64,000 bases of DNA from Ktedonobacterales bacterium (GTDB lineage: Bacteria; Chloroflexota; Ktedonobacteria; Ktedonobacterales; Ktedonobacteraceae), in NCBI GenBank assembly GCA_027451525.1, contig DAIDJF010000015.1, positions 1-64,000 of the forward strand, written 5' to 3'. Made by a program: the position numbers and the translations under genes. The notes beneath the pieces were generated by a model that saw nothing but the letters and a program-made list of their open reading frames with translations, did not search any database and was not told the origin of the DNA. Shown here piece by piece: positions 23,340-32,863 of this stretch (positions are counted from its first letter, which is position 1; every line of letters starts with the position of its first letter).

Positions 23340-23727
23340 CCGAGAAGAAGTCTGATCCGTGTTGAGCGAGTATAGTATGAGGTTGATTGCCAACAGAGAG
23401 CCGATGGATGGTGGAAATTCGGCAAGGAAAAGTCACCTCGGAACCCTCTCGTGAGCGGCTGGCCGAAGAAAGCCCGGTAGGGACCGATGTATCGCGTCGG
23501 TACAAGGGCAAGTAGGAACAGATGGGTGGCTCCCATGCAGCGCGATAGCCGATGAAAGTGGTCTTTCCGCCTTCGCTACAGTGTGGTAGGGGAATGCGTG
23601 AGTCATGTACCGCATGATTTCGCCGCTGATGAGGAAAAGACAAGCCGGGTGGTACCACGGGAGCCGATGAAATTTCAGCTCTCGTCCCTTTGCTAAGAGC
23701 AGATGCAAGGGGGCGAGAGCTTTTTTA
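23340..23727 (+). promoter_or_regulatory. T-box riboswitch leader of the argC-argB-his operon
   Basis: Stem I carries AG-bulge/distal-loop sequence (AGAGAGCCGATGGATGGTGG). Its helices CGAG/CTCG and GAGGT/ACCTC flank an internal loop with AGTA on the 5' side and GGAACCCT on the 3' side, the specifier loop. The T-box sequence GGGTGGTACCACGGGAGC follows, then a terminator/antiterminator pair. Reading after GAA gives CCC, or CCT one base later, both proline. The acceptor-pairing UGGU fits a tRNA with discriminator A, so not typical bacterial tRNA-His (C73). T-boxes raise expression when the cognate tRNA is uncharged. Confidence 0.9.
23677..23727 (+). terminator. T-box regulated intrinsic terminator
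   Basis: GCTCTCG...CCTTTGC pairs with GCAAGGG..CGAGAGC, followed by TTTTTT. The T-box segment ACGGGAGC can instead pair with GCTCTCGT, giving the antiterminator. Confidence 0.9.
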
Positions 23728-23764
23728 TTGGTGTTTTTTTACAAGTATGGCGAGGATGTACAGG

Positions 23765-24838
23765 ATGAAGACAGTCTCAATCGTCAATGTGACGAGCTAT
23801 ACAGGGGTGGAGCTATTGCGTATGCTGGCTGGTCACCCAGAATTTGTCGTTACTTCGGTTACGGCGCGCAGTAATGCGGGAAAGCGTCTGGACGAAGTTT
23901 TTCCACAACTGGCGGCGTTGCGTTATACGAGTGCAGAGCATGCAGGTGCAGTGAATCCCGCAATGGTATTGACTGAGGAGCCTGCGCAGACCGATTTGGC
24001 CTTTGTATGCCTGCCACACGCGGCGGCAGCAGAGGCGATTGTCACGCTTTTAGAGCGTGGTATCAAGGTGGTTGATCTCTCGGCAGATTTCCGGCTGCGC
24101 GATGTGCAAGAGTATGAGCTATGGTACAAACATACACATCCCGCGCCTGCATTATTAGAGACTGCTGTATATGGGTTGTGTGAGCGGTATCGTGATGAGA
24201 TAGAGCGGGCGGATCTGGTTGCCAATCCGGGATGTTACGCGACAAGCTCTATTCTCGCGCTTATTCCGGCATTTGCGGCAGGCATCATTGAGCCTGACGT
24301 GATTATTGATGCGAAATCGGGTGTAAGCGGTGCGGGACGTGGTTTGACATTAAGTACGCATTACGCGGAAGTGAATGAAGATGTCAGTGCGTACAGCATC
24401 ACGGGACACCGTCATCTGCCAGAAATCATACAAGAGGTGCTGCGTGCGGCCGAGGCAGGTGAGCATGGAGTTGCAAATGCTCCGCGCATTACTTTTATGA
24501 CGCATCTCATGCCAATGACACGTGGCATTCTTGCGAGCTGTTATGCCACGTTGAAGGAGCGTGTGAGTACGGCGGATGTGCGTGCGCTCTACGAACGATA
24601 TTACGCGAACGAGCCATTTGTGCGGATCGTTGATCAGCCGCCACATACGAAATGGAGCTATGGTAGTAACTTTTGTTTTATTCATCCGTTTGTAGATGAG
24701 CGAACTGGACGGCTAGTGGTGTTCTCTTGTTTGGATAATCTCGTCAAAGGGGCATCTGGGCAGGCAATTCAGAACGCGAATAGAATGTGTGGTTTAGCAG
24801 AAACAGCGGGTTTATCAATGATTGCTGTCTATCCATAA
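23765..24838 (+). CDS. argC: N-acetyl-gamma-glutamyl-phosphate reductase
   Basis: About 357 residues. It reduces N-acetylglutamyl phosphate to the semialdehyde in arginine/ornithine synthesis. The NAD(P)-binding start (VNVTSYTGVELLRMLAGHPE), catalytic-Cys motif ADLVANPGCYATS, DAKSGVSGAGRG and C-terminal DNLVKGASGQAIQN are intact. The ORF track begins within the T-box terminator; the ATG at 23765 with GAGG nine bases upstream is the sensible start (23756 is possible). It is the first gene after the T-box and is followed by argB. Confidence 0.95.
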   Translation: MKTVSIVNVTSYTGVELLRMLAGHPEFVVTSVTARSNAGKRLDEVFPQLAALRYTSAEHAGAVNPAMVLTEEPAQTDLAFVCLPHAAAAEAIVTLLERGIKVVDLSADFRLRDVQEYELWYKHTHPAPALLETAVYGLCERYRDEIERADLVANPGCYATSSILALIPAFAAGIIEPDVIIDAKSGVSGAGRGLTLSTHYAEVNEDVSAYSITGHRHLPEIIQEVLRAAEAGEHGVANAPRITFMTHLMPMTRGILASCYATLKERVSTADVRALYERYYANEPFVRIVDQPPHTKWSYGSNFCFIHPFVDERTGRLVVFSCLDNLVKGASGQAIQNANRMCGLAETAGLSMIAVYP

Positions 24839-24906
24839 GAGTTGGTAGACAAGGGTTAAACTTATTCGTCAGATGGTAAGTGACGAGGAATCAGGAGAAG
24901 TACATA

Positions 24907-25776
24907 ATGGGAATTACCTTTTCGATGAACGCGGATGGAGATATTATTAATGATCAGCATCTCATTGCTCAGGTGTTAGGTGAGGCTCTTCCGTATATTG
25001 ATTTTCTGCGAGGCAAGACGCTCGTGATAAAATTGGGTGGGAGTACACTTGAACATCAGCGTGGTGTGTTGCAAGATATTATCTGGCTGCATGCGCTAGG
25101 AGCGCGTCCTATTCTGGTGCATGGTGGTGGGCCATATATTAATGAGTGGTTGAAGAAACTGAATATTCCGACCCGTTTTGAGCAGGGGTTGCGCGTGACG
25201 GATGCCCAGACGCTCGATGTTGTGCGTATGGTGCTACTTGGTCAGGTCAATCAAGGATTGGTCTTGATGGCGTCGCAAATGGGGGGGAAAGCCGTTGGTT
25301 TGAGCGGAACGGACGGCAATATGGTACGCGCGCGCATTGCTGATGAGCATCTTGGTTTTGTGGGAGAGATTACCGAGGTGGATCCGTCTCCTGTACGAGC
25401 GTTAATTGAGCAAGGTTATATTCCTGTTATTGCACCGCTAGGCGTGGGCGAGGATGGCTCGTGTCTGAATATCAATGCTGATCTGGTTGCGGCTCATCTT
25501 GCAGGTGCGCTTGATGCCGAAAAATTGATCTTTTTGAGCAATGTTGTGGGTATCTGTCGTGCTGATGGCTCACTGATTTCAGAGTTGAGCGAAGCAGAGG
25601 CAAAACAATTGATCTCTGAGGGTGTTATCAATGGTGGCATGATTCCGAAGGTTTCGGCCTGCCTGGACGCACTGGCATCTGTGCCACGTGTGCATATTGT
25701 CGATGGACGCGAAGCCCATGTGCTGTTGCGCGAACTGTTTACAGACCAGGGTGCGGGAACGATGATTGTACGATAA
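24907..25776 (+). CDS. argB: Acetylglutamate kinase
   Basis: About 289 residues, normal for ArgB. Amino-acid kinase fold with LVIKLGGSTLE near the N-terminus, HGGGPYINEWLKKL, GLSGTDGNMVRA and a late NGGMIPKVSACLDAL. It phosphorylates N-acetylglutamate, the step before ArgC. The kinase fold is shared with aspartate and LysW-type kinases, but the HGGGP and MIPKV motifs favour ArgB. AGGAG eight bases before ATG 24907 decides the start. Other arginine genes (argJ, argD, argF) are absent from the window. Confidence 0.92.
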   Translation: MGITFSMNADGDIINDQHLIAQVLGEALPYIDFLRGKTLVIKLGGSTLEHQRGVLQDIIWLHALGARPILVHGGGPYINEWLKKLNIPTRFEQGLRVTDAQTLDVVRMVLLGQVNQGLVLMASQMGGKAVGLSGTDGNMVRARIADEHLGFVGEITEVDPSPVRALIEQGYIPVIAPLGVGEDGSCLNINADLVAAHLAGALDAEKLIFLSNVVGICRADGSLISELSEAEAKQLISEGVINGGMIPKVSACLDALASVPRVHIVDGREAHVLLRELFTDQGAGTMIVR

Positions 25777-25827: not shown

Positions 25828-27360
25828 ATGAAGAAGCGCGTTGAGCGATTGCGTGGTATGCATGATGTATTACCGGAAACGCATCAGCATCAGCGTTGGG
25901 TGAGAGAGCATGTGGAGTCATTTCTGGCACGAGCGGGTTACGTAGCGGTCGATTCGCCGATTGTAGAGCGCAGTGACCTGTTCCAGGCCAGTTTTGGACA
26001 AGAATTGTGGCAGAATCTCTATACCTTTCGGTTGCACCATCGAGACTTGTGTTTGCGCCCGGAATATACAGCGTCAATCTGTCGGCTCTATCTTGACCAT
26101 TATCAGCAGCATATATTGCCACAACGCTTTCAGTATGCTGGACCAGTGTTTCGCTATGAGACGCCGGGACGGAGTCGTTATCGGCAACATACGCAATTGG
26201 GTGTGGAGTTGATTGGCGGACAGCCCGCTTTTGCTGATGCCGAGATACTAGGATTGGCCTGTGAGGTTCTCAATAGTTTGCATATCACTCACTATCGGCT
26301 GGAACTGGGTCATATCGGCGTTGCCAGTGGTTTTATCAATCGGCTCCATTTGGACGATCAAGCGGCGCGTTTGTTATTAAGTCTGATGGAGCAGATTAGT
26401 CGTTCTGAAGAGGGTGAGCAGCAAGCGCAAAAACGGTTAGAGTTGTTATATCCGCTTAATCCGCTTCAGCAGATGGAGCAAGAGGCTTCCGATGCGCTAA
26501 CGACAACGCGAGCGGCAGGTGAACTATCTACTTCTCTGGGAACGCACCACATTACATCATTGTTGAATGGCATCAGTATCTCGTTTGGTGATGACGATGT
26601 GCGCGATGAAGTCATTGAACGTTTCTTATGGAAAACAGGACGGGGCGAGCAGCGTAAGCAGATCTTGTACGCGCTTGAATTTCTCCGCGCCTTGCATGCT
26701 GTTTCTGGGCCACCACCGACAGTCTTTGATGAACTGGGAGCCTTGTTAGAGCGTTACGAATTAAGTACGGAACCGCTCGACGAATTGCGCCAATTGGTCG
26801 CGGTTGCGGAGCAGTGTGGAGTATCACGTGAGCAGGTTATTCTTAATCTCTCATTAGGACGTGGTGTTAGCTATTATACAGGTCTGGTGTTCGAGATTCA
26901 CGCGCAGGATGCCGATGGTTTTGATGCACAACTCTGCGGCGGAGGACGTTATGATCGCCTGATGCGCGCTGTGGGCAGTGCGCGTGATATCAATGCATGT
27001 GGTTTTGCCTTTGGTCTGGAGCGGCTATTATCTTATCTTCCTAAAACTGATTTACCTACGTTAGAGACGACGGAGGCAATAGTTATTCCTGTCAGCGGTC
27101 AGACATTGCCATATGCGCTGTACGTGGCACAATCCGCGCGTGTGCAAGGAATACGGACCGAGGTTGATGTGACAGGGCATGGCGTGGGTATGGCCTTAAA
27201 GCAGGCGGCAAAAAAACAGATTCGTCTGGCATTGATTGTGGGAGAGGATGAACAGCGGACACGCAGCGTGACGGTGCGTAATCTGGTGACGGGCGAGGAG
27301 CAGGTTGCAAGCATTGAGATGCTGGCAGGTCAGATGGGCGATAAGGAGCAATCGTTGTGA
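25828..27360 (+). CDS. hisZ: HisS/HisZ family class II synthetase-like protein, probable ATP phosphoribosyltransferase regulatory subunit
   Basis: 510 residues. Class II aminoacyl-tRNA synthetase fold: motif 1 region near 40-60, motif 2 RYETPGRSRYRQHTQLGVEL near 109-129, a histidine-binding segment GRGVSYYTGLVFEIH and motif 3 FAFGLERLL. An anticodon-binding-like domain ends it (about 410-500). It sits directly before hisG with a GTGA overlap, which favours HisZ, the activator of HisG. It keeps a C-terminal domain that true HisZ often lack and is longer than both families because of extra sequence at about 190-300. A bona fide HisRS is not excluded. Confidence 0.75.
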   Translation: MKKRVERLRGMHDVLPETHQHQRWVREHVESFLARAGYVAVDSPIVERSDLFQASFGQELWQNLYTFRLHHRDLCLRPEYTASICRLYLDHYQQHILPQRFQYAGPVFRYETPGRSRYRQHTQLGVELIGGQPAFADAEILGLACEVLNSLHITHYRLELGHIGVASGFINRLHLDDQAARLLLSLMEQISRSEEGEQQAQKRLELLYPLNPLQQMEQEASDALTTTRAAGELSTSLGTHHITSLLNGISISFGDDDVRDEVIERFLWKTGRGEQRKQILYALEFLRALHAVSGPPPTVFDELGALLERYELSTEPLDELRQLVAVAEQCGVSREQVILNLSLGRGVSYYTGLVFEIHAQDADGFDAQLCGGGRYDRLMRAVGSARDINACGFAFGLERLLSYLPKTDLPTLETTEAIVIPVSGQTLPYALYVAQSARVQGIRTEVDVTGHGVGMALKQAAKKQIRLALIVGEDEQRTRSVTVRNLVTGEEQVASIEMLAGQMGDKEQSL

Positions 27361-28436
27361 AAACGAAGGGTGAAATCCGTCTTGCTTTGCCGGGCAAAGG
27401 GGCATTAGAGGCGGCAACGCTGGCGTTTTTGGCTGAATGTGGCATGAAAGTGAGCCGCAACAATCCGCGTCAATACCTTGCACGGATGAAGAGCATTCCT
27501 GATATCGAGGTCGTGTTTCTCCGCGCAACGGATGTGCCACTGCTGGTGCAGAATGGTGACGCGGTGCTTGGTGTGACTGGCTATGATATTCTGGCGGAGC
27601 ATCGCGGCTATGGAGACGAGGAAGATGAGGACGACGAGGATGATGATCTGGTTATGCTGGAACGCGATCTGGGCTATGGAGCCTGTCGGCTGGTCGTCGC
27701 AGTACCGGAGACGTGGATTGATGTCAGCAACTGTGCAGACCTCTGGCATCTCTCTGGCTATTATCAGACGCATAAAGGGCGCGGCCTGCGTATCGCGACC
27801 AAATATCCAATCCTGACGAATCAGTTCCTGCGACGGCATAATATCAGCCACTACACGCTTATTTCGCCGCATGGTGCGCTTGAGGCGGCACCGCTGACTG
27901 ATACCGCTGATCTGATCGTTGATCTCACAGAGACGGGAACGACGCTGCGCGAGAATCATCTCAAACTCTTAGATGATGGCACTGTTTTGCGCTCACAGGC
28001 GTGTTTGATTGCCAATGCGCGTTTGCTGCACGAGAATGAGCAGGCGCGACATGTCGTGGAAACGATGTTGGAATTGATGGATGCTCATATACAGGCGCGC
28101 AATCGTTCGCTGCTCACGGCTTATATGCATGGAGAGAGTCTGGAAGTGATACAAGACACGTGTAAGACCTTAAATGTACAGCTACGCGCGCAAGACTCGG
28201 AGCTTGAATTGCGTGTCGCGGTGAGCGAGATTGCGGGTGTGAATGAAACAGGACATTACACGCTTTCCGGTGTGGTTGATATGGGCGGGTCCGCGCCCGC
28301 GCTAATGGCAACTATCGCGCTTTTGCGCCGCGCAGGAGCAACACATGTGAATCTGACGCCGCTTACCTATCGTTTTGCGCAAGAGTCTGTCAGTGTGCGC
28401 AATCTACGCGAACGCTTAAAGAGAGTACAGATGTGA
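27357..28436 (+). CDS. hisG: ATP phosphoribosyltransferase
   Basis: 359 residues, first enzyme of histidine synthesis (ATP + PRPP). It starts at GTG 27357 overlapping the previous stop, with AAGGAG eight bases upstream. Periplasmic-binding-like fold: IRLALPGKGALEAATLAFL, then GVTGYDILAEH, and the PRPP motif DLIVDLTETGTTLREN. Residues about 87-97 are an acidic insert (DEEDEDDEDDD). About 120 C-terminal residues look like a HisG C-terminal regulatory domain. Short HisG needs HisZ and long HisG usually does not, so the coexistence of a long HisG with a HisZ-like gene is unusual. Confidence 0.92.
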   Translation: MKTKGEIRLALPGKGALEAATLAFLAECGMKVSRNNPRQYLARMKSIPDIEVVFLRATDVPLLVQNGDAVLGVTGYDILAEHRGYGDEEDEDDEDDDLVMLERDLGYGACRLVVAVPETWIDVSNCADLWHLSGYYQTHKGRGLRIATKYPILTNQFLRRHNISHYTLISPHGALEAAPLTDTADLIVDLTETGTTLRENHLKLLDDGTVLRSQACLIANARLLHENEQARHVVETMLELMDAHIQARNRSLLTAYMHGESLEVIQDTCKTLNVQLRAQDSELELRVAVSEIAGVNETGHYTLSGVVDMGGSAPALMATIALLRRAGATHVNLTPLTYRFAQESVSVRNLRERLKRVQM

Positions 28437-30769
28437 ATAACACCATTATTTTCGATCTGGATGGTGTTATTACCAGCGAGGAAGCCTATTGGGATACAGC
28501 GGGACTGGTAGTGCATGAATTGCTGTATAGTCCGCGCTACTGGAACATCCTACATAGTGCGCTTCCTTATCGTCCGGTCGCTGGTGCAGAAGAGAGCCAT
28601 CGTGTTGCCAATGCTGTGTTGCCACAGGAGGCGATTATCGCGCTCAAAGCGCGTTCGATCAATTCTAATTGGGATACTTGTTACGTGGGCGTGTCTTTCT
28701 GCCTGTTGCATCTGCTCGTGCGTGTACCAAATCTCGCAGCGTTGCTACCATTGCGTCCAGAAAATGCGGAATGGATACAAGCATTCCGTGAACAACTGGC
28801 TCATGTAGAGGTAGAAGGTGTAATTCAAGCAGCAATCTATGCGGATTTTAGTGCAGCCGTTTTTGAGGGCCAGACGGGTATGGCATTTATTGAGCGGTTA
28901 AATGACTATGCAAGTGTCTTGCTTGGTCAGCGTATCGAGGGCGTTTTTGGACGCTATAGTCCATCCTGGTTGTTCTGTCAGGACCTGTTTCAGGAATGGT
29001 ATCTGGGTGATGCTCTCTATATGCAAAGTTACGGTCATGTTCCCGCGCAAACAAGCAAAGAGGGTTGCATTCACTTTGAGCGACCGCTGCTGTCCAAAGA
29101 GCTAATCGCATCAACATTGGCGGAAATACGAGCGGAAGGCTATGTGCTGGGCGTAGCGACGGGGCGTCCTGGGATTGAAGCAACGCTTCCTCTGCAAAAT
29201 TATGGCTGGTGGAACTATTTTGATGAGTCGCGTATTACTACGCACGCAGAGGTCGAGCGCACCGAAAATGTGTTACGTGCGCAGGGACAAACGCAATCAC
29301 TGGTCAAACCGCACCCGTATCAGTTTATGCTGGCAGCGAATCCTGACTATCGGCTTGATGTGGGCAATAAACCGCGCAAAGGCAGTTTTATCGTGATTGG
29401 CGATACGCCGAGCGATGTCAAAGGTGGGCGTGAAGCAGGCGCGATCACGGTGGCGGTGCTGACGGGCGCACGCACAACTGAGGCACGGCGCGTATTGGAA
29501 GCGAGCCAACCCGATTTTATCATTCAAGATGTGACCAGACTGCCCGCCCTATTAAAGGAAATGGATGATCTGGCAATGATTCAGCGTCTGCAATTCAGCG
29601 AGCGCGCTAAAGCCGAGTTATTGCTACAACGCTGGTTCGCGCGTCATATGCATATCGAGGCTGAACGGGTGACGCTCACACCTAAAGCGGTCTCGCTTAA
29701 CTCGTTTAATGGCTTCTACGCGGTTGAGGGGGAAGAATATTTCTTCAAGACACACGTCGAAGATCAGGGTATTCTGCAAGAGTATTATCACGCGGAACTG
29801 TTGTTCAACGCTGGCTATAACATAGTACGGCCTCTGCGCACCATTCATGAGCAGGGACGGCAGATGGTCATTTATCCAGTCGTGCGCTGGCCTGTGATGT
29901 TTGATCTGATGCGCGCTGTTGAGACAGGCGCAACGAGCGAGGTCACGCAGGAACAGCTTGCTAGCGCAGAGAGGCTGGAATGTGAACGCTTGCTGCATAT
30001 TTACCGCGAAACGTTGGCTGAGAGTACGGCTCAGGAGCACGCGCGCGCGCCCATCCATCAGCTTTTCTGGCATCGTCTGGCTGGTGAACGTCTGAAACAT
30101 TTTTACGGCAACAAAGCTGTGCCGCTACCGCAGGATGCCAACGAGCGATATCCTTTTGAACAACTGGCACGTTATCGCTGGCAGATCAATGGCATACGCT
30201 ATCCTATGACGCTAGGCGAACTGATTGCGCGTGGACAAAAGTTACTCCTGCCTGAGCAGGCAGGGGTGACGGTTATTGGGCATGGTGATGCGCACTTCGG
30301 CAATGTTTTTCTTGAAGAGCAAGAACGTTATCTCTACTTTGACCCGGCTTTTGCGGGACGCCATGCGCCGCTATTGGATATGGTCAAGCCACTCTTTCAC
30401 AATATCTTTGCGACATGGATGTATTTTCCGCATGAGATCGCGGAAATGCTGCATTTGTCGGTACGAGTGCAAGATGATACCATCATGGTAGAGCATAATT
30501 ATCGATTAACGCCAGTGCGAGAAGCAATGCTGGCGACGAAGCTGGAATGTCTGGTAATGCCGCTCATCGATGCGCTACGCTCTCGTGACATGTTGCCAGC
30601 GAACTGGCAAGAGACAGTGCAGTCGGCTCTGTTCTGCTGTCCCTTGTTGACAATAAATCTGTTTGATGAGGCGCGTATGCCAGCGGCGATTGGCTGGTTA
30701 GGTTTAACGCTGGCGGTGATCATGGGTCATAGCGACCTGCCATCTTTGGCAAGAGGGCTAGAGGAATGA
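28433..30769 (+). CDS. Fusion of a HAD hydrolase and an aminoglycoside-phosphotransferase-like domain
   Basis: 778 residues, starting at GTG 28433 inside the hisG stop (GTGA). The N-terminal HAD domain (about 1-370) has all four motifs: DLDGV at 8-12, TGRPG near 243, KPHPY near 292 and GDTPSDVKGG near 323-332, with a large cap between the first two. The C-terminal part (about 390-778) is kinase-like of the APH/choline-kinase group: Lys in FFKTH (439), HGDAHFGN at 617-624 and FDPAF near 636, then LLDMVK. The HAD half may be a phosphatase for this pathway. The kinase-like half has no known role in histidine synthesis. Confidence 0.85.
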   Translation: MNNTIIFDLDGVITSEEAYWDTAGLVVHELLYSPRYWNILHSALPYRPVAGAEESHRVANAVLPQEAIIALKARSINSNWDTCYVGVSFCLLHLLVRVPNLAALLPLRPENAEWIQAFREQLAHVEVEGVIQAAIYADFSAAVFEGQTGMAFIERLNDYASVLLGQRIEGVFGRYSPSWLFCQDLFQEWYLGDALYMQSYGHVPAQTSKEGCIHFERPLLSKELIASTLAEIRAEGYVLGVATGRPGIEATLPLQNYGWWNYFDESRITTHAEVERTENVLRAQGQTQSLVKPHPYQFMLAANPDYRLDVGNKPRKGSFIVIGDTPSDVKGGREAGAITVAVLTGARTTEARRVLEASQPDFIIQDVTRLPALLKEMDDLAMIQRLQFSERAKAELLLQRWFARHMHIEAERVTLTPKAVSLNSFNGFYAVEGEEYFFKTHVEDQGILQEYYHAELLFNAGYNIVRPLRTIHEQGRQMVIYPVVRWPVMFDLMRAVETGATSEVTQEQLASAERLECERLLHIYRETLAESTAQEHARAPIHQLFWHRLAGERLKHFYGNKAVPLPQDANERYPFEQLARYRWQINGIRYPMTLGELIARGQKLLLPEQAGVTVIGHGDAHFGNVFLEEQERYLYFDPAFAGRHAPLLDMVKPLFHNIFATWMYFPHEIAEMLHLSVRVQDDTIMVEHNYRLTPVREAMLATKLECLVMPLIDALRSRDMLPANWQETVQSALFCCPLLTINLFDEARMPAAIGWLGLTLAVIMGHSDLPSLARGLEE

Positions 30770-31377
30770 TTGCAATTATTGATTATGGCGCGGGCAATAT
30801 CCGCAGTATCGAAAAGGCTCTGGAACACGTGGGCGCGACCGTGCAAGTCACGAACGATCCAAAGGTGGTTGCGCAAGCTAAGGCGGTGGTCCTGCCAGGG
30901 GTTGGTTCTGGCGGTGCAGCGATGGCGCAAATCACGCATTACGGGCTAGATGATGCTATTCGTGAGGCTACACAACAGGGTAAGCCGTTTCTTGGTATCT
31001 GTCTGGGCATGCAGTTGCTTGCCGATCATCACGAGGAGGGCGAGGTTGATGGTCTGGGATTGTTTCGTGGTGAGGTGAGACGTATCCCGCATGGGCCAAA
31101 GATTCCGCATATGGGCTGGAATCAGGTGCGCCCCTTGCAGGATGGTCTGGCAATTTTTGCTGATATTCCAGCAGATGGCTACTTTTATTTCGCGCACTCG
31201 TACTACGTCGAGCCGCAAGATCAACACGGCGTCGCCGCTGTCACTGATTACGGTTCGCCCTATTGTAGCGTGATTGCCACAGAACAGGTGTGGGGAACGC
31301 AGTTTCACCCAGAGAAGAGTGGAGCAGTTGGCTTGCAATTATTGAAAAATTTTGTGAAATGGGTCAATGTGGCATGA
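30766..31377 (+). CDS. hisH: Imidazole glycerol phosphate synthase, glutamine amidotransferase subunit
   Basis: 203 residues. Class I glutaminase: catalytic Cys in FLGICLGMQLLA, and His/Glu in GTQFHPEKSG near the end. The N-terminus IAIIDYGAGNIRSIEKALEH is diagnostic for HisH. It supplies ammonia to HisF. It begins in an ATGA overlap with the HAD-APH gene and ends in an ATGA overlap with hisA. Confidence 0.97.
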   Translation: MIAIIDYGAGNIRSIEKALEHVGATVQVTNDPKVVAQAKAVVLPGVGSGGAAMAQITHYGLDDAIREATQQGKPFLGICLGMQLLADHHEEGEVDGLGLFRGEVRRIPHGPKIPHMGWNQVRPLQDGLAIFADIPADGYFYFAHSYYVEPQDQHGVAAVTDYGSPYCSVIATEQVWGTQFHPEKSGAVGLQLLKNFVKWVNVA

Positions 31378-32093
31378 TTATTTTACCCGCGATAGATATC
31401 AAAGATGGGCAGTGTGTGCGCCTGTATCAAGGAGATTACGCGCAGGTCACAACGTATGACATGGACCCTGTGCGTGTGGCGCAACGCTGGGAGCGCGAGG
31501 GCGCACAGTGGTTGCACGTGGTTGATCTGGATGGCGCGGCACAGGGACATCCTGTCAATAGCGAACTGATCAGACGAATGTGTAGCTCAACGTCGCTGCA
31601 TATCGAGGTTGGTGGTGGCATGCGCGCGCTGGCTGATATTGAGCAGGTGCTTGGGCTGGGCGTAGAGCGCGTGATTGTGGGCACGGTTGCCCTTAAAGAT
31701 CGCACGCTTTTACAAAACGCGCTGGAGCGATGGGGCGAACGGATTGTTGTGGGGCTGGATGCGCGCAATGGGCTGGTTGCCGTTGATGGCTGGCGTGAAA
31801 CATCGCGCGTGCAGGCAACGCACCTTGCCGCTGAACTGAGCGAACTGGGTGTACAACGCTTTATCTATACCGATATTGCGCGTGATGGTGTATTGGGCGG
31901 ACCTAATTTGCAAGCCTTAGGCGAGATGCAGCGTGCCACGTCGCGTCCGCTCATTGCGTCAGGTGGCGTGAGTACCCTCAAGGATATATATGCGCTAGCT
32001 GAAATGCGAGTAGAAGGTGCAATTATTGGGAAGGCACTGTATACGGGTGATATAGCATTGGCTCAGGCACTGGAAGCCACTGGGAGGAAATAG
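31374..32093 (+). CDS. hisA: ProFAR isomerase (1-(5-phosphoribosyl)-5-[(phosphoribosylamino)methylideneamino]imidazole-4-carboxamide isomerase)
   Basis: About 239 residues, a (beta/alpha)8 barrel. Starts [20 protein letters not shown] with the catalytic Asp, and has the duplicated phosphate-binding half-barrels ([15 protein letters not shown] and [14 protein letters not shown]). The ORF track starts at 31290 inside hisH; the ATG at 31374 gives the correct N-terminus and a four-base overlap with hisH. No sign of PriA-type fusion. Confidence 0.97.
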
Positions 32094-32095
32094 AG

Positions 32096-32863
32096 ATGCT
32101 GACCAAACGTATTATCCCTTGTCTGGACGTTGCGCAAGGGCGAGTCGTCAAGGGCGTGAATTTTGTGAATCTGCGCGATGCTGGCGACCCGGTAGTGCTG
32201 GCCTCGTTTTATAACGACGAGGGAGCCGATGAAGTAGTTTTTCTTGACATTACGGCATCGTATGAGAATCGCGCGACCATGCTGGATGTTGTGCGGCGAA
32301 CGGCGGAACAGGTCTTTATTCCAGTCACAGTCGGTGGCGGTATCCGTACCGTTGAAGACATTCGCGCCACGTTGGGAGCGGGTGCGGATAAAACCTCGCT
32401 TAACACGGCGGCGGTGCAGAATCCAGATATATTGCGGGCGGGAGCGGAACAGTTTGGCGCGCAATGTATCGTGCTGGCAATTGATGCGCGCTCTAACGCG
32501 CAGATGCCGAGCGGCTACGAGGTTTTTGTGCATGGTGGGCGCACGCCTACAGGGATCGATGCGCTGGAATGGGCGCAGCGCGGCGTTGAACTGGGGGCAG
32601 GCGAAATTTTGCTGACCAGCATGGATCGCGACGGCACGAAAATTGGCTATGATCTTGTCTTAACGGCAAAGATTTCACAGGCCGTAACGGTTCCTGTGAT
32701 TGCCTCTGGCGGCGTAGGAACGCTTGAGCACCTGTATGAAGGATTGACGACGGGCGGAGCGGATGCCGTACTTGCCGCTTCAATCTTCCACTTTGGCGAG
32801 TATCGTATCCGGGAAGTCAAGCATTATCTGCATGATAAAGGTGTGCTTGTGCGTCCTGCGTAG
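32096..32863 (+). CDS. hisF: Imidazole glycerol phosphate synthase, cyclase subunit
   Basis: 255 residues, normal HisF. Starts [20 protein letters not shown] with the catalytic Asp, has [15 protein letters not shown], the second Asp in [15 protein letters not shown] and [14 protein letters not shown]. It makes imidazole glycerol phosphate and AICAR with HisH. GGAGG eight bases before the ATG, two bases after hisA. Last gene of the operon; I see no clear terminator after it. Confidence 0.97.

Follow-up and report, generated by a model that had tools for sequence, protein, structure and literature searches.

The 64,000-nucleotide stretch of Ktedonobacteraceae DNA analysed here (the window; source contig G000:C15) carries, within a histidine operon, a gene that joins an N-terminal HAD hydrolase half to a C-terminal kinase half (KIN). 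The product is a non-homologous candidate counterpart of the whole two-domain HisB, with KIN serving step 6 and the HAD half step 8 of histidine synthesis, a reading that comes close to an even chance. Of its parts, replacement of HisB by KIN at step 6 is evenly poised between right and wrong, and the candidate assignment of the HAD half as the histidinol-phosphate phosphatase of step 8 is rather probable. The wider proposition, that parts of Chloroflexota make histidine without HisB and that the Ktedonobacteria version is a convergent remake of the two-domain enzyme, is put slightly below even. IGPD, the dehydratase of HisB and a target of herbicides, is regarded as the universal step-6 enzyme of the pathway, and to our knowledge, which is not exhaustive on this point, no replacement for it has been described. 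If the proposal is true, a kinase-based step 6 would give a textbook pathway a new enzymatic solution, APH-type ATP-driven dehydration would reach beyond fatty-acid metabolism, and a gap that automatic annotation would take for histidine auxotrophy would be filled in a large bacterial group.

The fusion gene has argC-argB-hisZ-hisG on its 5′ side and hisH-hisA-hisF on its 3′ side, all of them with matches above or near the curated scores (Table 1). Its start overlaps the hisG stop by four bases (GTGA, 28433-28436) and its end overlaps the hisH start by another four (ATGA, 30766-30769). Overlap at both ends was already in the original prediction, and the accompanying claim that the gene belongs to the his operon is strongly supported by a linkage to his genes that is conserved across species.

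Table 1. Positions in the window of the fusion gene, its halves and catalytic motifs, and the neighbouring arg and his genes
Feature	Position	Strand	Evidence
argC	23690..24838	+	TIGR01850 E=1e-118
argB	24880..25776	+	TIGR00761 E=4e-78
hisZ (HisS-like, with anticodon-binding domain)	25828..27360	+	TIGR00443/TIGR00442, PF03129
hisG	27357..28436	+	TIGR00070 E=3e-55
HAD-KIN fusion gene	28433..30769	+	778 aa, GTG start; fusion kept in 27/29 family genomes
HAD half (about aa 1-386), 1QYI homologue, candidate histidinol-phosphate phosphatase	28433..29590	+	phmmer E=1.1e-35, profile E=1.2e-55, Foldseek E=9e-20
HAD motif I, DLD (D8, D10)	28454..28462	+	invariant in alignment
HAD motif II, TGR (T243)	29159..29167	+	invariant in alignment
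HAD motif III, KPHP (K292)	29306..29317	+	invariant in alignment
HAD motif IV, GDTPSD (D324, D328)	29402..29416	+	invariant in alignment
KIN half (about aa 387-778), divergent kinase with the APH fold, ATP-dependent candidate to replace the HisB dehydratase	29591..30766	+	AlphaFold, Foldseek, stand-alone homologues beside hisD
K439, ATP-binding lysine (FFKTH)	29747..29749	+	67/68 sequences
HGDAHFGN (aa 617-624), catalytic Asp 619 and Asn 624	30281..30304	+	D619, N624 in 68/68
D637 of DPAFAGRH, second metal-binding Asp	30341..30343	+	68/68
hisH	30766..31377	+	TIGR01855 E=1e-69
hisA	31374..32093	+	TIGR00007 E=1e-82
hisF	32096..32863	+	TIGR00735 E=6e-114

The original prediction had proposed looking for the fusion in other Chloroflexota his operons, and 27 of 29 sampled genomes of the window's family carry it, normally in the his operon, so that a chance open reading frame or a sequencing fusion can be dismissed. 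The bearers of the fusion are soil and hot-spring bacteria, and the aligned full-length proteins share 55-87% identity. The usual location is directly 5′ of hisH-hisA-hisF, which is the hisB slot, after hisG or argB. In Dictyobacter and Tengunoibacter the fusion still precedes hisH-hisA-hisF although hisZ-hisG are gone and a different hisG lies elsewhere; in two further genomes (G002 and G014) hisG is kept upstream and hisH was not found beside the fusion, hisH-A-F lying on a separate contig in G002. In Dictyobacter kobayashii G026 the HAD and KIN halves occupy two overlapping frames (L056:8781-11095), reflecting a natural split or else a frameshift. The two family genomes that lack the fusion, G005 and G010, lack a match to hisG as well as a strong match to hisF, and the his pathway of G010 is in decay. 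A hisF remnant in this genome (L263:10820-10998) adjoins intact hisIE and hisD. Two kinase peptide patterns, which divergent cases would escape, were scanned against 84,980 species; the fusion turned up only in Ktedonobacteria, and further, unfused kinase genes came from two Chloroflexi and from Nocardia colli.

The HAD half is homologous over its full length, large helical cap included, to PDB entry 1QYI, and this similarity together with motifs I-IV places it among the 1QYI-type HAD hydrolases; Pfam likewise recognizes HAD domains in the fusion protein (PF13242, E=1e-10; PF00702, E=5e-8). The 1QYI protein, a hypothetical protein of S. aureus (structural genomics target ZR25), differs from the fusion in having no fused kinase, and its structure record comes without an established function. 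The family-model matches of the fusion protein include none to TIGR01656, TIGR01856 or TIGR02067 (HAD-IIIA, PHP HisJ and HisN), and the HAD half has no NCBIfam phosphatase equivalog at cut-off, so assignment as a histidinol phosphatase via family models was dropped.

Structure prediction, named as a check in the original prediction, confirms the identity of both halves, with Foldseek returning 1QYI for the first and APH-fold kinases for the second. The AlphaFold model of KIN (pLDDT 88.9, pTM 0.86) matches APH(9)-Ia (E=1e-8), APH(3')-II and homoserine kinase; for many APHs the Foldseek probability is 1.00, but the TM-score by query length is just 0.33-0.48. The Pfam APH model PF01636 gives the window protein 14.8 bits (E=0.025), below the gathering threshold of 23.2, and two stand-alone KIN relatives 24.6-24.7 bits, above it. 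KIN resembles the small-molecule kinases of the APH family (APH(9)-Ia, homoserine kinase, methylthioribose kinase) in fold, catalytic Asp/Asn and second Asp, but is only about 10-15% identical to them and has invariant motifs of its own, HQLFxHR and CCP; a search of the PDB found no sequence relatives. Among 68 fused and stand-alone KIN sequences E450, D619, N624 and D637 are invariant and K439 varies solely in the Nocardia homologue, and the catalytic set of Lys, HGDxxxxN and second Asp is that required of an APH-fold kinase. With HAD motifs I-IV invariant in the aligned relatives as well, both halves look catalytically intact by their motifs, in line with what had been claimed. KIN is the more strongly conserved of the two in the alignments, where its conserved His, Arg and Lys residues (HQLFxHR, R553, K652, H644, R696, K703) would be suited to a phosphate-bearing substrate.

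HisB was sought in 28 genomes with a joined pairwise query (HisD + HisB + HisIE + PHP protein). It is found in none of the 24 KIN-bearing genomes covered (nine of the window's family and 15 of another Chloroflexota order, that of G258), a count that comes from one pairwise search and includes some incomplete assemblies. The same query recovers HisD and at least HisI in the KIN-bearing genomes listed (a few of them with no HisI entry), HisB at 47-49% identity in the KIN-lacking genomes G407 and G410, and far weaker relatives in the form of PHP proteins at 24-29% identity. The his operons of the KIN-lacking G030, G036, G049 and G051 contain hisB, and HisB is present in 6/6 KIN-lacking neighbours with a readable operon, a figure that leaves out G055 and G057, where no hisB is visible in the stretch read. 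Across the 2.68 Mb of DNA scanned with a HisB profile, matches occur solely in KIN-lacking genomes, and the fusion protein, with its kinase fold, has no IGPD match among the family models or in Pfam. Literature searches returned nothing on the absence of hisB from Chloroflexi, Ktedonobacter or Anaerolineae and no proof of histidine prototrophy for these organisms. The original prediction had missed this apparent absence of HisB, which points to a particular candidate function for the kinase half.

KIN-bearing members without HisB and KIN-lacking members with HisB both occur in each of two separate orders, and the contrast is therefore not the quirk of a single clade, the genomes within each order not being independent of one another. 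In the HisD tree, sequences from KIN-bearing genomes separate from the others across the two distant orders with full support, the one exception being the decaying G010, whereas the HisF tree follows the organisms and not KIN status. HisD and KIN thus move as a module, and in these phylogenies the module appears to behave as a replacement of the HisD/HisB arrangement.

Outside the class the two halves occur unfused. In the order of G258, KIN is stand-alone and single-copy in 42 of 121 sampled genomes (in two pieces in G497), and hisD lies immediately upstream of it in 32 of 40 informative loci, a count that omits one locus cut by a contig end; the eight loci without this adjacency all belong to one family (f96). 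The hisG-hisZ pair is often convergent and downstream of hisD-KIN. Of the 121 genomes, just G403, G411 and G455 have a 1QYI-type HAD gene, each time directly after KIN in the order hisD-KIN-HAD, and the gene after KIN in Nocardia colli encodes a HAD-HisC fusion, corresponding to steps 8 and 7. As unfused KIN stands beside hisD and unfused HAD follows KIN, each half is tied to histidine synthesis independently, and the fusion, the hisD linkage and the constant placement of HAD after KIN together mark the two as a genuine histidine-pathway pair. The Nocardia locus (L121:5971-9044) has secretion-like genes in its surroundings, and its KIN homologue has the ATP-binding lysine replaced.

That the HAD half is the missing histidinol-phosphate phosphatase, as first suggested, is plausible and preferred. 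A canonical phosphatase elsewhere in the window's genome (G000), which would have spoken against this role, was looked for: no HisN-type match was found there or in G022 and G028, and none of the HisN-, PHP- and HAD-IIIA-type phosphatases is common to all sampled fusion carriers of the family. G000 does contain a PHP-family protein that resembles histidinol phosphatases (G000:C20; L088:5937-6713), but it falls below the curated cut-off and has no his neighbours. PHP-type proteins are absent from four fusion-carrying family genomes and present in one that has lost much of the his pathway, and this protein was rejected as the canonical enzyme on its score, its neighbourhood and a distribution that does not track the pathway. 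HAD-IIIA proteins, above cut-off in just 4 of 10 family genomes, were likewise set aside as the phosphatase of the family. The idea that unfused HAD tracks the loss of other phosphatases did not hold; in G403, G411 and G455 it coexists with a HisN-like protein, so that possession of HAD does not strictly go with the loss of other enzymes for step 8.

In the proposed model, the substrate of KIN would be imidazoleglycerol phosphate (IGP), whose hydroxyl adjoining the imidazole ring would be phosphorylated at the expense of ATP; the phosphate would then leave, pushed by the ring, to give an enol and from it imidazole-acetol phosphate. In the IGPD reaction it is the hydroxyl beside the imidazole ring that leaves; once phosphorylated, this hydroxyl would be an excellent leaving group that the ring helps to expel, and a kinase alone might therefore suffice. 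Step 6 would thereby become an ATP-driven dehydration in place of the Mn-dependent dehydration by HisB/IGPD. HisC would convert imidazole-acetol phosphate to histidinol phosphate, which the N-terminal HAD half would hydrolyse to histidinol for HisD; both reactions, the phosphorylated intermediate and the assignment of halves to steps are what we infer. The bifunctional HisB of the E. coli type (HAD histidinol-phosphatase plus IGPD) is likewise a two-domain his-operon chain with an N-terminal HAD, placed before hisH-hisA-hisF. Its HAD, however, is a HAD-IIIA histidinol-phosphatase and that of the fusion belongs to the 1QYI family, and the APH-fold kinase of the fusion has no similarity to IGPD.

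A precedent for the chemistry is provided by ACAD10/ACAD11 and bacterial LvaA, in which a kinase domain phosphorylates a hydroxyl and the phosphate is then eliminated, and ACAD10 itself carries HAD and kinase domains (PMC11342911). They are like the proposed KIN in phosphorylating a hydroxyl for elimination and, for ACAD10, in joining HAD to kinase, but their substrates are 4-hydroxyacyl-CoAs and the elimination is performed by a separate dehydrogenase domain; moreover, the HAD of ACAD10 lacks the full DxD motif that the HAD of the fusion keeps complete. The model is favoured by the standing of KIN as a his-locus gene without other assignment, beside hisD or fused ahead of hisH-hisA-hisF. Against it count the lack of a recognizable elimination-catalysing domain beside KIN, the eight f96 genomes with KIN away from hisD, and the Nocardia homologue without its ATP-binding lysine.

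It is conceivable but unlikely that only the HAD half belongs to the pathway, as the phosphatase. KIN would then be an accessory kinase that might regulate HisD or HisG, say, or phosphorylate histidinol as a kind of valve, and another, unlinked enzyme would stand in for HisB. The intact HAD motifs, the hisB slot and the patchiness of other phosphatase families would fit such an arrangement, but KIN outnumbers HAD in his loci by a wide margin (42 against 3 of the 121 genomes) and is more strongly conserved, and two separate lineages would be left with no candidate for step 6. The same ratio weighs on the phosphorylation cycle on one metabolite that the original prediction had suggested, for which no support emerged since KIN mostly occurs without HAD. 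A damage-control or on/off cycle, in which KIN phosphorylates a his intermediate and HAD dephosphorylates it or restrains the kinase, is accordingly given little weight, even with HAD strictly paired with KIN whenever present and with the HAD domain of ACAD10 known to restrain its kinase (PMC11342911); the complete DxD of the HAD here differs from ACAD10, and the missing HisB would be left unexplained.

The search for HisB being one query in a joined chain, the enzyme could also be present in too divergent a form, with HAD-KIN an accessory his-operon protein, for example in salvage of histidinol or an imidazole derivative. This appears quite unlikely given that the search caught the distant PHP proteins and the HisB of neighbours, and was negative in 24/24 KIN-bearing genomes. 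Hardly credible is the derivation of KIN from an antibiotic- or defence-type APH gene joined to the operon by chance: the fold and the aminoglycoside kinases among the best Foldseek matches point that way, but KIN is single-copy, conserved with his genes in two orders, scarcely similar to APHs in sequence, and absent together with the his genes in G005 and G010.

Several his genes around these loci have features of their own. The hisZ product of the window (25828-27360) scores above the TIGR00442 cut-off for histidyl-tRNA synthetase and slightly below that for HisZ, and retains an anticodon-binding domain, which is unusual for HisZ. HisG (27357-28436) contains a strongly acidic insertion, GDEEDEDDEDDD, at about residues 85-97. 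The hisG located elsewhere in Tengunoibacter and Dictyobacter (L066, L067, L068) is of the short type and, in the two cases examined closely, lies near argininosuccinate genes. A KIN-lacking member of the same order carries HisD and HisB as a single fused polypeptide (L082:8327-10291).
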